This document shows, piece after piece, positions 23,537 to 29,045 of a stretch of 39,316 nucleotides of DNA; within the stretch, counting starts at the first letter, position 1; each line of letters begins with the position of its first letter. Origin of the DNA: Flavobacteriales bacterium (GTDB lineage: Bacteria; Bacteroidota; Bacteroidia; Flavobacteriales; Flavobacteriaceae); contig SGZB01000007.1 of assembly GCA_004321735.1 (NCBI GenBank), forward strand, positions 1-39,316, in the 5' to 3' direction. Both the position numbers and the translations under genes were made by a program. Under the pieces are notes generated by a model. The model was not told the DNA's origin. It ran no database searches and saw nothing but the letters and a program-made list of their open reading frames with translations.

Positions 23537-24547
23537 ATGGATATTGAAAAGATTAAAAATGATATTGTTGACTTTAAAATAACAGACAATATTTCTCTGG
23601 AAAAATTTAGGTTATCATTCCTTTCAAAAAAAGGAATTATCCCATCTCTTTTTTCTGAACTTAGAAATGTTCCAAAAGAACAAAAAAAAGAAGCTGGTCA
23701 AAAAATTAATGATTTAAAAAAGTTAGCTACAGAAATATTTGAAAAAGGCAAATTAGATTTCAGTAAAGCGGAAGAAAAATCAGTGATTGATGATTTTACT
23801 AAACCTTCAAATATTTTAAGATTAGGTTCAAGACATCCAATCTCAATTGTAAAAAATAAAATAATTGATATTTTCCTAAAAATTGGTTTTGATATTTCTG
23901 AAGGACCAGAAATTGAGGATGATTGGCATAACTTTACAGCTTTAAATCTTCCAGAATATCATCCTGCAAGAGATATGCAGGACACATTCTACCTTAGTAA
24001 AGATCCTGATTGGTTATTAAGAACTCATACGTCATCTGTTCAGATAAGACATATGGAAAATAATAAACCTCCAATCAGAACAATATCACCTGGAAGAGTT
24101 TACAGAAATGAAGACATCTCTGCAAGATCTCATTGTTTTTTTCATCAAATTGAAGGTTTGTATATCGATAAAAATGTTTCATTTGTTGACCTTAAACAAA
24201 CTTTACTTTATTTCACGAAAGAACTATTTGGAAAAAATAAAATAAGATTAAGACCTTCATATTTTCCATTTACTGAGCCTAGTGCTGAGCTAGATATTTA
24301 TTGGGGATTAGAAACAGAAACTGATTACAGAATAACTAAAGGTACTGGATGGTTAGAAATATTAGGATGTGGAATGGTTGATCCTAATGTCTTAAAGAAT
24401 TGTAATATTGATCCAAATGAATATTCTGGATATGCATTCGGTCTTGGTCTTGAAAGAATTACAATGCTTTTATATCAAATTGATGATATAAGAACATTAT
24501 ACGAAAATGATATAAGGTTTTTAAGTCAGTTTAGCAAATCAATATAA
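23537..24547 (+). CDS. pheS: Phenylalanyl-tRNA synthetase alpha subunit
   Basis: The catalytic subunit of the alpha2-beta2 enzyme that charges tRNA-Phe. The 336-residue protein has the N-terminal coiled coil (about 1-80), motif 2 region around [14 protein letters not shown] and [10 protein letters not shown], and motif 3 [12 protein letters not shown] near 312-323. Length is normal. The beta-subunit gene pheT is not beside it. A near-consensus -7 box, TAACTTTA (23513-23520), ends 16 bases before the ATG. The last nine bases overlap convergent gpsA. Confidence 0.95.
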
Positions 24548-25537
24548 CTTATCAGCTAGATCCCTTATTGTTTTTTTTGGATTAGCAAGTTCATAAAGGA
24601 TACTGTAAGTTGCATTAATGTATGTGCATTCAATATTTAGCTTTTTTGCTATTTCATAAGCGTTTTTAGCAGCATAATATCCTTCAACAACCATTGACAT
24701 TTCAGACATAGCAGATTTTACGGAATAACCTTTGCCTAACATATTTCCGAATGTTCTATTTCTACTAAAAGTTGAGTAAGTGGTAACTAATAAATCTCCA
24801 AAGTATGCAGAATGATTTAGATCTCTATTTTTATCCTTTTTAATTGTAGTTATGAAAAGTCTAAGTTCCTTAGCACAATGACTGATTAGTACACTTAGAA
24901 AATTATCACCATATCCTAAACCATGACATACACCAACAAGAAGCGAATAAACATTCTTAATGGTTGCAGAATATTCGATCCCAATTAAATCATTAGAAAA
25001 AGAAGTTTTAATATAATTTGTTGATAGTTTTTCAGAGATAAATTTCCCCAAATTCTTAGTATTTGTTCCAACAGTTAAGTATGAAAGCTTTTCTTGGGCT
25101 ACTTCTTCAGCATGACATGGTCCACTGATTATTCCGATATTTTCATAAGGGACTTTAAATTCTTTATTGAAATGTTCAGAAATAACTAATTGTGTAATTG
25201 GTATTACACCTTTTGATGCAGAGATAATGTACTTCCCCTTTAATTTATCTTTATGCTCTTTAAAAGTTTTGTGTATGAATGGACTTGGAGTCGCAATAAC
25301 AAGTAGATCTGAGTTGTCTATGATTTCTTCAATCTTTGAATACATTGTAATTTTTTTTATATCAAGCTGAATATGTCTTAAATATTTTGTGTTTCTATTT
25401 TTAAGTTGAATATTCTCAATAAGCTCAGAATCGCGAATAAACCAATTTAGTTTTTCAGTGTTTTCAAGAAAAATTTTCACGAGTGCTGTTCCCCAGCTTC
25501 CCCCTCCAATAACAGCGATATCATTTAATTTATTCAC
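24539..25537 (-). CDS. gpsA: NAD(P)H-dependent glycerol-3-phosphate dehydrogenase
   Basis: Reduces dihydroxyacetone phosphate to glycerol-3-phosphate, the backbone for phospholipids. The 332-residue protein starts with GTG; the dinucleotide motif GGGSWG is at 11-16, SASKGV near 107 and catalytic lysine K194 in ATIKNVY. It has its own promoter-like box (TAAATTTG, 25566-25573). The 3' end overlaps pheS by nine bases on the opposite strand. Confidence 0.95.
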
Positions 25538-25565
25538 TTTAACAATTCTTTAATATTTGGAAAAA

Positions 25566-25573
25566 CAAATTTA
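25566..25573 (-). promoter_or_regulatory. Promoter -7 box for gpsA
   Basis: TAAATTTG on the minus strand matches TAnnTTTG exactly and ends 28 bases before the GTG at 25537. It is inside the 101-base spacer shared with the plus-strand terminator. Confidence 0.45.
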
Positions 25574-25613
25574 AACTAAATTTATTATGTTAGTTTTTCA
25601 AAGTTTGTTTAAG

Positions 25614-25640
25614 AACACCCTCCCTAGGGTGTTTTTTTTT
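25614..25640 (+). terminator. Strong intrinsic terminator on the plus strand
   Basis: AACACCCT (25614-25621), CCCT loop, AGGGTGTT (25626-25633) forms a perfect 8-bp stem with a GC-rich core, and the T-run extends to 25640. It is the clearest terminator in the window. The T-run lies only on the plus side; read on the minus strand the hairpin is followed by CTTAAAC, so it cannot serve the flanking minus-strand genes. It must end a plus-strand transcript, either pheS read-through antisense to gpsA or an unannotated small RNA. Confidence 0.8.
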
Positions 25641-25998
25641 AAAATGACAGTAAAATTAAGATTAAACTAATCTCATAAAAAAAGAAAATTCTAAAGTGTT
25701 TCTTTCTTATATCACTTTCTTTATTATGCATATGCCACCCAACGATTGCTGAAATGAATGCAATAATTGTATAAGTTAATTCTATTGAAAGAGCTTTCTC
25801 TCCTATAAGAACTAAGGCTAAATAGGATGAAATTTTAAAAAATAAAAAAATCAAACCAAATACTGACATTCTGAAATCTGTAATAGAATATTCTTTACCC
25901 TTAATAAACTTGTAAAGAGATGCTAATGTTATATACGATAGAATTGCTATTGATGCTATTTTTAAAAAATCATTAGAGTAGAGAAGATACATATTCAT
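25639..25998 (-). CDS. Small membrane protein of unknown function (119 residues)
   Basis: Four hydrophobic segments (about 11-31, 43-65, 72-92 and 101-118) with short polar loops, one containing GWHMHNKESD. No family recognised. It is the last gene of an operon with an ABC ATPase, overlapping its stop by one base (TAATG), so it may assist that transporter; this is inferred only from position. Its stop codon overlaps the T-run of the plus-strand terminator. Confidence 0.7.
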   Translation of the reverse strand: MNMYLLYSNDFLKIASIAILSYITLASLYKFIKGKEYSITDFRMSVFGLIFLFFKISSYLALVLIGEKALSIELTYTIIAFISAIVGWHMHNKESDIRKKHFRIFFFYEISLILILLSF

Positions 25999-27875: not shown

Positions 27876-29045
27876 TTAATAAATATTACTTAAAATATTT
27901 AATGATTCAGTGATGTAAAGATTAAAATCACTTGGATGATTATTCAAGTCGCTTCCTCTACTTTTTCTCTTTCCTAATCTAACTATAATTGCATTTTCTT
28001 TTGGAATGACAATAACGTACTGACCTTGATGACCTCTTAATGAAAAAAAGTCAATGTTGTTTTGTTTGCCAATCCAAATTCCGTATCCATAAATTGGATT
28101 TGAATTAAACCTTGGTTTAATAGACATTGAAATAAATGAACTGTCTATCAGCTTCTGTTCATTGATTTTCCCAAAATTCTTATAAACTAATCCAACTTTT
28201 GCAAAATCTTTTGCATTTGAACTTAAACAGCAGTAAGCTTTTGTCATATTTTTTTCTTTGCTGTCAATCATCCAAATAGCGTCATTTTTAGCTCCCATTG
28301 GATTCCAAAGCCATCTATAGGTGAGCTCTTGAATTGTTGAGTTATTTGCTTTTTCAATTGCCATAGCCAGTAACTGAGTATTACCACTTAAATACTTGAA
28401 CTTATCTCCTGAGATTCCGGAAAATTTTGAGCTCATCATTAATTTGTTGAGATCCTTTGTAACATAAGCTTGTGCAGTTATACCCATTAAATCCTTATAG
28501 TTTTCTTCCCATTCCAGACCAGATGACATAGTTGATAAATCACTAAGAGTTACATTACTTCCATTGTTTTCATTGAAAGCAGGAAAGTAATCTGTTAGCT
28601 TAGAATTTAAACTTGGAATGGTTTCTTCTTCAATACTCTTTAAAAACAAAAAAGAGATAATACTTTTTGATATTGAAAAAGAGTTAGTCATTGAATTTTC
28701 ATCATATCCAAGAAAATAATCCTCTTTAATAATTGAGTCATTTTTTATTACTAAGAAAGCAACAGTTTCATTTTTTTTATGAACTGAATCAAGAGTTTTT
28801 GAACTTCCAATTTGATTATAAAGCTTATGTTTTGGCCACTCAAAAGGTGAGCTGCTTTTTTTAATTTCAACATTATCAAAAAATTTGTAATCATCAATTG
28901 ATGCTTTTGTGTTTTGAGATCTAATTACCAAGGAAATCATGCTTTTAAAATCATCAAAATATTGAAACCTGGAACTTACTATTATAGCAAAAACAACTAA
29001 AATCATTACACCCAGAGGGATTGATATAAACTTAATTTTTTTCAT
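27876..29045 (-). CDS. Serine beta-lactamase-family hydrolase
   Basis: A 389-residue protein with an N-terminal membrane anchor (about 8-25) and a class C beta-lactamase/penicillin-binding-like domain. The nucleophile motif SISK is at 124-127, the second motif appears as YLSGN (218-222), and an RGHQG segment near 345 replaces the KTG box. These fit esterase, D-aminopeptidase or amidase members of the family; true beta-lactam hydrolysis cannot be assumed. It is the first gene of the four-gene operon with the peptide ABC ATPase, so a role in cutting peptides or esters for uptake is possible. Confidence 0.88.
   Translation of the reverse strand: MKKIKFISIPLGVMILVVFAIIVSSRFQYFDDFKSMISLVIRSQNTKASIDDYKFFDNVEIKKSSSPFEWPKHKLYNQIGSSKTLDSVHKKNETVAFLVIKNDSIIKEDYFLGYDENSMTNSFSISKSIISFLFLKSIEEETIPSLNSKLTDYFPAFNENNGSNVTLSDLSTMSSGLEWEENYKDLMGITAQAYVTKDLNKLMMSSKFSGISGDKFKYLSGNTQLLAMAIEKANNSTIQELTYRWLWNPMGAKNDAIWMIDSKEKNMTKAYCCLSSNAKDFAKVGLVYKNFGKINEQKLIDSSFISMSIKPRFNSNPIYGYGIWIGKQNNIDFFSLRGHQGQYVIVIPKENAIIVRLGKRKSRGSDLNNHPSDFNLYITESLNILSNIY

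Follow-up and report, generated by a model that had tools for sequence, protein, structure and literature searches.

The closest described counterparts of the locus analysed here are sRNAs of Flavobacterium psychrophilum reported by Guerin et al. (2021, PMC9723704): Rfp11, transcribed from an ECF-type SM6 promoter; Rfp36, transcribed from a sigma-54 SM4 promoter; and Rfp18, which affects protease mRNAs. That source describes SM6 promoters as having a CGT −10 box and gives TAnnTTTG as the sigma-A consensus. These are free-standing flavobacterial sRNAs, and the promoter types of Rfp11 (ECF with a CGT −10 box) and Rfp36 (sigma-54) are like those found before a family of putative RNAs in other Flavobacteriaceae that carry a GGTT(A/G)GTTA tail; the likeness drawn here is one of description and promoter type. 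The second point of reference is the intrinsic (Rho-independent) terminator, with its stable hairpin, U-tract and G·U pairs that are valid on a single strand. The hairpin studied here shares these traits; however, its orientation opposes both neighbouring genes.

The window is the whole 39,316-nt stretch analysed (contig SGZB01000007.1, assembly GCA_004321735.1, family Flavobacteriaceae), from an assembly of 1.15 Mb in 53 contigs that is 78 % complete. The hairpin sits within the 101 bp that separate gpsA from a gene for a 119-aa protein; both genes are on the minus strand, as the initial annotation had it. The features of the region are as follows.

23537–24547, plus strand: pheS, convergent with gpsA, the two 3′ ends overlapping by 9 bp.
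24539–25537, minus strand: gpsA, glycerol-3-phosphate dehydrogenase, with a GTG start.
25538–25544, strand unassigned: TTTAACA box, kept in the genus and in many putative free-standing sRNA loci of other genera.
25566–25573, minus strand: −7 element of gpsA, TAAATTTG, which fits the sigma-A consensus TAnnTTTG.
25566–25569 (CAAA) and 25588–25592 (TGTTA), plus strand: speculative sRNA promoter candidate CAAA-N18-TGTTA, which resembles the CAAT-N16/17-CGTTA of other genera.
25573–25596, plus strand: possible 5′ hairpin AAACTAA/TTAGTTT, from fold prediction.
25590–25611, plus strand: conserved core TTAGTTTTTCAAAGTTTGTTTA, from the alignment, its first half common to genera g165 and g44.
25614–25633, plus strand: terminator hairpin AACACCCT-CCCT-AGGGTGTT, from sequence, fold, presence in 21/21 genus gpsA loci and compensatory changes.
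25632–25640, plus strand: T-run (U-tract) of the terminator; of the 8 nt that follow the core stem, 6–8 are T in 20/20 distinct genus sequences.
25639–25998, minus strand: gene for the 119-aa protein, membrane-like by eye, convergent with the putative small RNA.

The window gpsA is 99 % identical to that on a contig of the Flavobacteriaceae metagenome assembly MED851, and a search of a plasmid collection returned one distant gpsA match. A Pfam search with the 119-aa protein returned nothing up to E 0.1; relatives of its gene adjoin gpsA in the genus and also in several others. pheS also lies within 50 nt of gpsA in 14 loci from outside the genus and elsewhere is 400–1040 nt off.

In the window, the two arms of the hairpin (AACACCCT, 25614–25621; AGGGTGTT, 25626–25633) enclose the loop CCCT (25622–25625) and lead directly into the T-run, which extends into the stop codon of the 119-aa gene. 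The hairpin, its position and the T-run were annotated correctly at the outset; the description 'GC-rich' holds only relative to the AT-rich DNA around it, as four of the eight stem pairs are G-C. The stem lengthens to 11 pairs once A-U and G·U pairs with the T-run are counted, and we infer that this extended stem uses up the T-run and explains why a simple terminator scanner made no call at 25614–25640. A scan of the window at a cut-off of −10 kcal/mol returned two plus-strand sites, this one and another at 28856 within a coding gene, and none on the minus strand. Spacer and hairpin together fold at −22.7 kcal/mol (z −3.2), a value equalled by one of 200 shuffles. As 2/20 shuffled windows gave a hairpin of −13 or better, the evidence from the single sequence is weak, modestly above chance.

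Comparison within the genus was far more informative. We retrieved gpsA from 21 of 23 genus genomes (two gave no gpsA match), and all 21 gpsA loci carry the spacer with a plus-strand terminator in the same place. Every genus row scored a plus-strand terminator (26/26, −8.8 to −14.7 kcal/mol), representing 20 distinct sequences after removal of duplicates of the same genomes; L007 (Prevotellaceae, with an unrelated spacer) and L183, L195 and L201 (gpsA start off the contig) were left out. The alignment of these 20 sequences spans 126 columns with a mean column identity of 74 %. Stem variants are paired in every form (AACACCCT/AGGGTGTT, CACTC/GAGTG, GCATTC/GAATGC), the terminator helix is 97.5 % paired with four pairs changed on both sides, and over the whole structure 94.1 % of cells are paired vs 29–62 % when the structure is slid. 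The covariation score was 0.232 vs 0.156 in shuffles and was reached by none of 500. Pairs with double changes numbered four vs 2.5 in shuffles (5/500 reached four) and stem mostly from a single seven-sequence subgroup (GCATTC), while further pair types numbered nine, fewer than in shuffles (11.0). A covariance search of the spacer among relatives, proposed in the initial annotation, recovered a terminator with compensatory changes and a score above that of 500/500 shuffles, and the lack of conservation in close relatives that would have spoken against it was not seen: the terminator is present in 21/21 loci, and mean pairwise identity is 78 % for the spacer, vs 66 % for the 5′ coding part of gpsA and 55 % for the 119-aa gene.

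The stem cells of the 20 sequences comprise 183 Watson–Crick pairs, 12 G·U, one A·C and four others; plus-strand G·U pairs would be C·A mismatches in a minus-strand RNA, so the folded RNA is that of the plus strand. At 25614–25640, a stable hairpin followed by a U-tract is therefore joined by compensatory pairing and by G·U cells that point to the strand. The claim that the terminator works for plus-strand transcription only suits the window, where three of the 8 nt flanking the stem away from the U-tract are T, but does not extend to all relatives: this count is three in 9/20 sequences and 5–6 in the other 11/20, in which termination in both directions is possible. The comparison shows a predicted plus-strand terminator under selection in a conserved spacer, and conservation across the genus is, on these sequence grounds, decisive support that the terminator is real.

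The arrangement, a conserved sequence that ends in a terminator, fits what is expected of an sRNA gene. The core at 25590–25611, whose commonest genus form is TTAGTTTTTCATAGTTTGTTTA, is presumed to be the single-stranded part of the putative RNA, and was found with 0–1 mismatch in 12/23 genus genomes, each time solely at the gpsA locus. A second genomic copy of the core was rejected, as matches with 2–3 mismatches elsewhere were frequent for the reversed control too; so was TTTAACAATTCTTTAATA as a genome-wide motif (one exact copy and four with two mismatches vs three control matches). The nested complementary segments noted earlier, AACAAA (25564–25569) with TTTGTT (25604–25609) and AAACTAA (25573–25579) with TTAGTTT (25590–25596), are where they were placed and fold together, but covariation does not prove the upstream hairpin: 89.2 % of its cells pair in the 20 genus sequences, with no pair changed on both sides, and 7/20 sequences break two of its pairs and there pair, by eye, only in a register slipped by one.

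A start for the putative RNA is less easily placed. The window reads CAAA-N18-TGTTA rather than the exact CAAT-N16/17-CGTTA, and an ECF-like candidate of the form CAA(A/T)-N16..19-(C/T)GTTA occurs in 6/20 genus sequences. A search with PF08281 gave matches in 21/23 genus genomes, two of them in the window's own, which makes ECF-like sigma factors plausible in the genus; as there were also weaker matches in frames of ~900 aa and matches in control genomes, the model is unspecific to any one regulator. A sigma-A promoter for a plus-strand RNA was rejected, TAnnTTTG being found on the plus strand of the spacer in 0/20 genus sequences, and the SM5-like TAGTTTGT right before the terminator was rejected by reasoning, as the RNA would comprise little beyond the hairpin. 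On the gpsA strand, TAnnTTTG is present in 16/20 sequences, and in the window this −7 element overlaps the speculative sRNA promoter. Part of the conservation of the spacer is owed to the gpsA promoter.

A related layout was found in two further genera, g165 (16 loci) and g44 (two loci), on the strand opposite gpsA: a TTTAACA box, a near-invariant TTAGTTTTTCATAGTTT core running into GGTTGGTTA, a hairpin and a T-rich tail. The g165 core is TTTTTCATAGTTTAATATGGTTGGTTAT, with GGTTGGTTA exact in 15/16 loci; that of g44 ends in AATTGGTTTGGTTAC; and TTTAACA precedes the core in all 18. The first half of the core is common to these genera and the window's genus, in which GGTTGGTTA is not present, and both core and hairpin are at a greater distance from gpsA in g165 and g44. 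A profile of the genus placed 11 of the 18 bridging loci above all 900 shuffles (best E 1.7e-4), and a profile of the bridging loci placed 11/20 genus sequences above all 1000 shuffles, with E values of 0.24–2.7 that are weak singly; all matches of both sets are at the expected position. The other 9/20, including all seven of the GCATTC subgroup, did not rise above shuffles. The terminator score was passed by 7/16 loci of g165 and 2/2 of g44; the low rate in g165 is due to an interrupted T-run (TTTCTTNTTTT) in the other nine, in which a hairpin is present by eye. Genus g5, where 15/17 loci pass (not L180 or L185), has by eye a looser version of the layout. No profile between g5 and the other groups beat all shuffles; the g5 profile was weakened by an anchor that failed to find the correct site in at least three loci (L034, L179 and L187). 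The profile comparison excluded L185, which lacks the element, and L213, the second fragment of one genome.

The GGTT(A/G)GTTA family was counted in 111 further Flavobacteriaceae genomes, one locus each, all from outside the window's genus. The exact motif was found opposite gpsA within 450 nt in 22/111 genomes, among them L069 from g165; gpsA's own strand had it in 0/111. In all 22 tail loci a terminator scores −12 kcal/mol or better. CAAT-N16/17-CGTTA, which would fit an ECF-type promoter, lies between gpsA and the tail in 11/22 of them vs 2/89 loci lacking the exact tail, one of which (L136) has a tail with one mismatch; it was never found on the reverse strand. Because some of the counted loci are those in which the two motifs were initially spotted, these counts carry a degree of circularity, from which the strand controls are free. 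What the window shares with the family is the placement of the element, on the opposite strand to gpsA and immediately 5′ of that gene, together with a terminator. The genus lacks the GGTT(A/G)GTTA tail that defines the family at the gpsA locus and the window lacks the exact promoter, so we treat the window locus as a probable homologue and not as a family member. The window's genus was not among the 25 best matches of the profile of this far family, the bridge and genus profiles beat shuffles in 0/22 of its loci, and a direct profile link from the genus to the far family or to g5 was rejected as not above shuffles.

Genome-wide, TTTTGGTTRGTTANTTAG occurs in 104/199 genomes, with its reversed control in four. 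Among 30 loci examined, 18 carry the TTATTTAG form with a sigma-54-type promoter ~1 kb upstream; in 15 of these the tail is ~1.1–1.2 kb from the gpsA start by the listed coordinates, gpsA not being located in the remaining three (L088, L090, L097). Five more (5/30) have the TTAGTTAG form 24–92 nt behind a sigma-54-type promoter. The TTTTGGTTGGTTATTTAG tail lies ~1 kb behind the sigma-54-type promoter in L087, L088, L090–L095, L097–L099, L103, L107, L110, L111 and L113–L115, and in many of these 18 loci a coding sequence is visible by eye between the two; such loci possibly yield 3′-UTR-derived sRNAs. In loci L086, L104, L108, L109 and L112 the sigma-54-type promoter (TTGGCA..TTG) is 24–92 nt before TTTTGGTT(A/G)GTTAGTTAG, followed by a hairpin with a T-run. 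These are short, RNA-like free-standing genes, perhaps of the Rfp36 kind.

The original annotation had left two readings side by side, a small RNA starting in the spacer or a pheS transcript that ends here after crossing the whole of gpsA in antisense. In the latter, the terminator would shield the next operon, and several features are consistent with it: the 3′ ends of pheS and gpsA overlap, the scans of the window gave no terminator-like site between the two genes, and pheS is adjacent and convergent in 21/21 genus loci and in those bridging loci where both genes were found. As pheS is adjacent in both, the genus and the bridging genera cannot separate the two readings and only the far family can. 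There, strong terminators persist in five tail loci where pheS is 639–1040 nt distant and in five others whose fetched locus contains no pheS (L070 was missed by the T threshold in one terminator scoring and reached −20.5 in another). Outside the genus, pheS converges on gpsA with no more than 50 nt between them in fourteen loci: where the element is present (four loci) the terminators score −16.4 to −18.9, whereas of the ten without it four have no terminator and six only one of −8.1 to −11.7. This split is suggestive only, since the latter values overlap the genus range of −8.8 to −14.7. In addition, the g5 locus L185 has an adjacent pheS yet neither element nor terminator, and read-through from pheS leaves the conserved core unexplained. 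We consider it an improbable account of the hairpin, and favour the small RNA for its conservation, its strand-specific G·U pairs and the related layout in other genera.

Somewhat less probable still is that the spacer is solely the promoter and operator of gpsA, with the AAACTAA/TTAGTTT inverted repeat binding a regulator and the terminator blocking stray antisense transcription. The gpsA-strand TAnnTTTG in 16/20 genus sequences and the inverted repeat just upstream of it would fit such a role; against this, the g165 and g44 cores are near-invariant, and core and hairpin are there farther from gpsA. That the hairpin arose by chance and has no function, for which the equally good hairpins in shuffled windows would speak, is hardly credible given its presence in 21/21 genus gpsA loci with compensatory changes.

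Our preferred reading, to which we assign a probability of roughly 0.64, is that the hairpin at 25614–25640 forms the 3′ end of a very short plus-strand sRNA gene (~45–75 nt) divergent from gpsA, probably a shortened homologue of the RNA of other genera; the figure is held down by the promoter candidate occurring in 6/20 sequences only and by the overlap of the weak terminators of pheS-adjacent loci with the genus range. Transcription would start within the spacer and end near 25640. Were the degenerate CAAA-N18-TGTTA an ECF-type promoter, the start would be near 25598 and the RNA ~43 nt long; a start near 25570 would give one of ~71 nt opening with the AAACTAA/TTAGTTT hairpin. The sRNA promoter would overlap or adjoin the gpsA −7 box on the other strand, and the two start sites may compete. 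Its conserved U-rich core would be exposed as a single strand ahead of the terminator, and the RNA may act in trans by pairing with mRNAs. Its probable relative is the sRNA predicted at the same place and in the same orientation in other Flavobacteriaceae genera.

Searches against Rfam release 15 returned no family above the gathering score at the window locus and only a tRNA on 10 tail loci; at E values up to 5, 12 gpsA loci gave 11 matches, all below the gathering score. Two miRNA models that overlap the L064 terminator (best E 0.0084) were taken as chance palindromes. Among the matches listed from the open-licence literature, we found no description of a gpsA-linked flavobacterial sRNA, and nothing relevant by title for the motif strings. 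The window locus is probably a bacterial sRNA gene in kind, with no family in Rfam release 15.

More tentatively, and with greater doubt than belief, we propose that a Flavobacteriaceae regulatory RNA module (UUUUGGUUGGUUAKUUAG plus terminator) could be supplied in three ways: as an ECF-driven free-standing sRNA divergent from gpsA, as the 3′ UTR of a gene that sits at that locus and is driven by sigma-54, and, at other sites, as a short sRNA of its own that is likewise sigma-54-driven. The gpsA-linked copy, with a diverged seed, might then survive in streamlined marine lineages as an unusually small trans-acting RNA. An RNA locus kept beside gpsA in several genera, including one with small genomes, would give studies of post-transcriptional regulation in marine bacteria a defined target, and the tail of the wider family would provide a testable seed sequence common to ECF- and sigma-54-linked RNAs.
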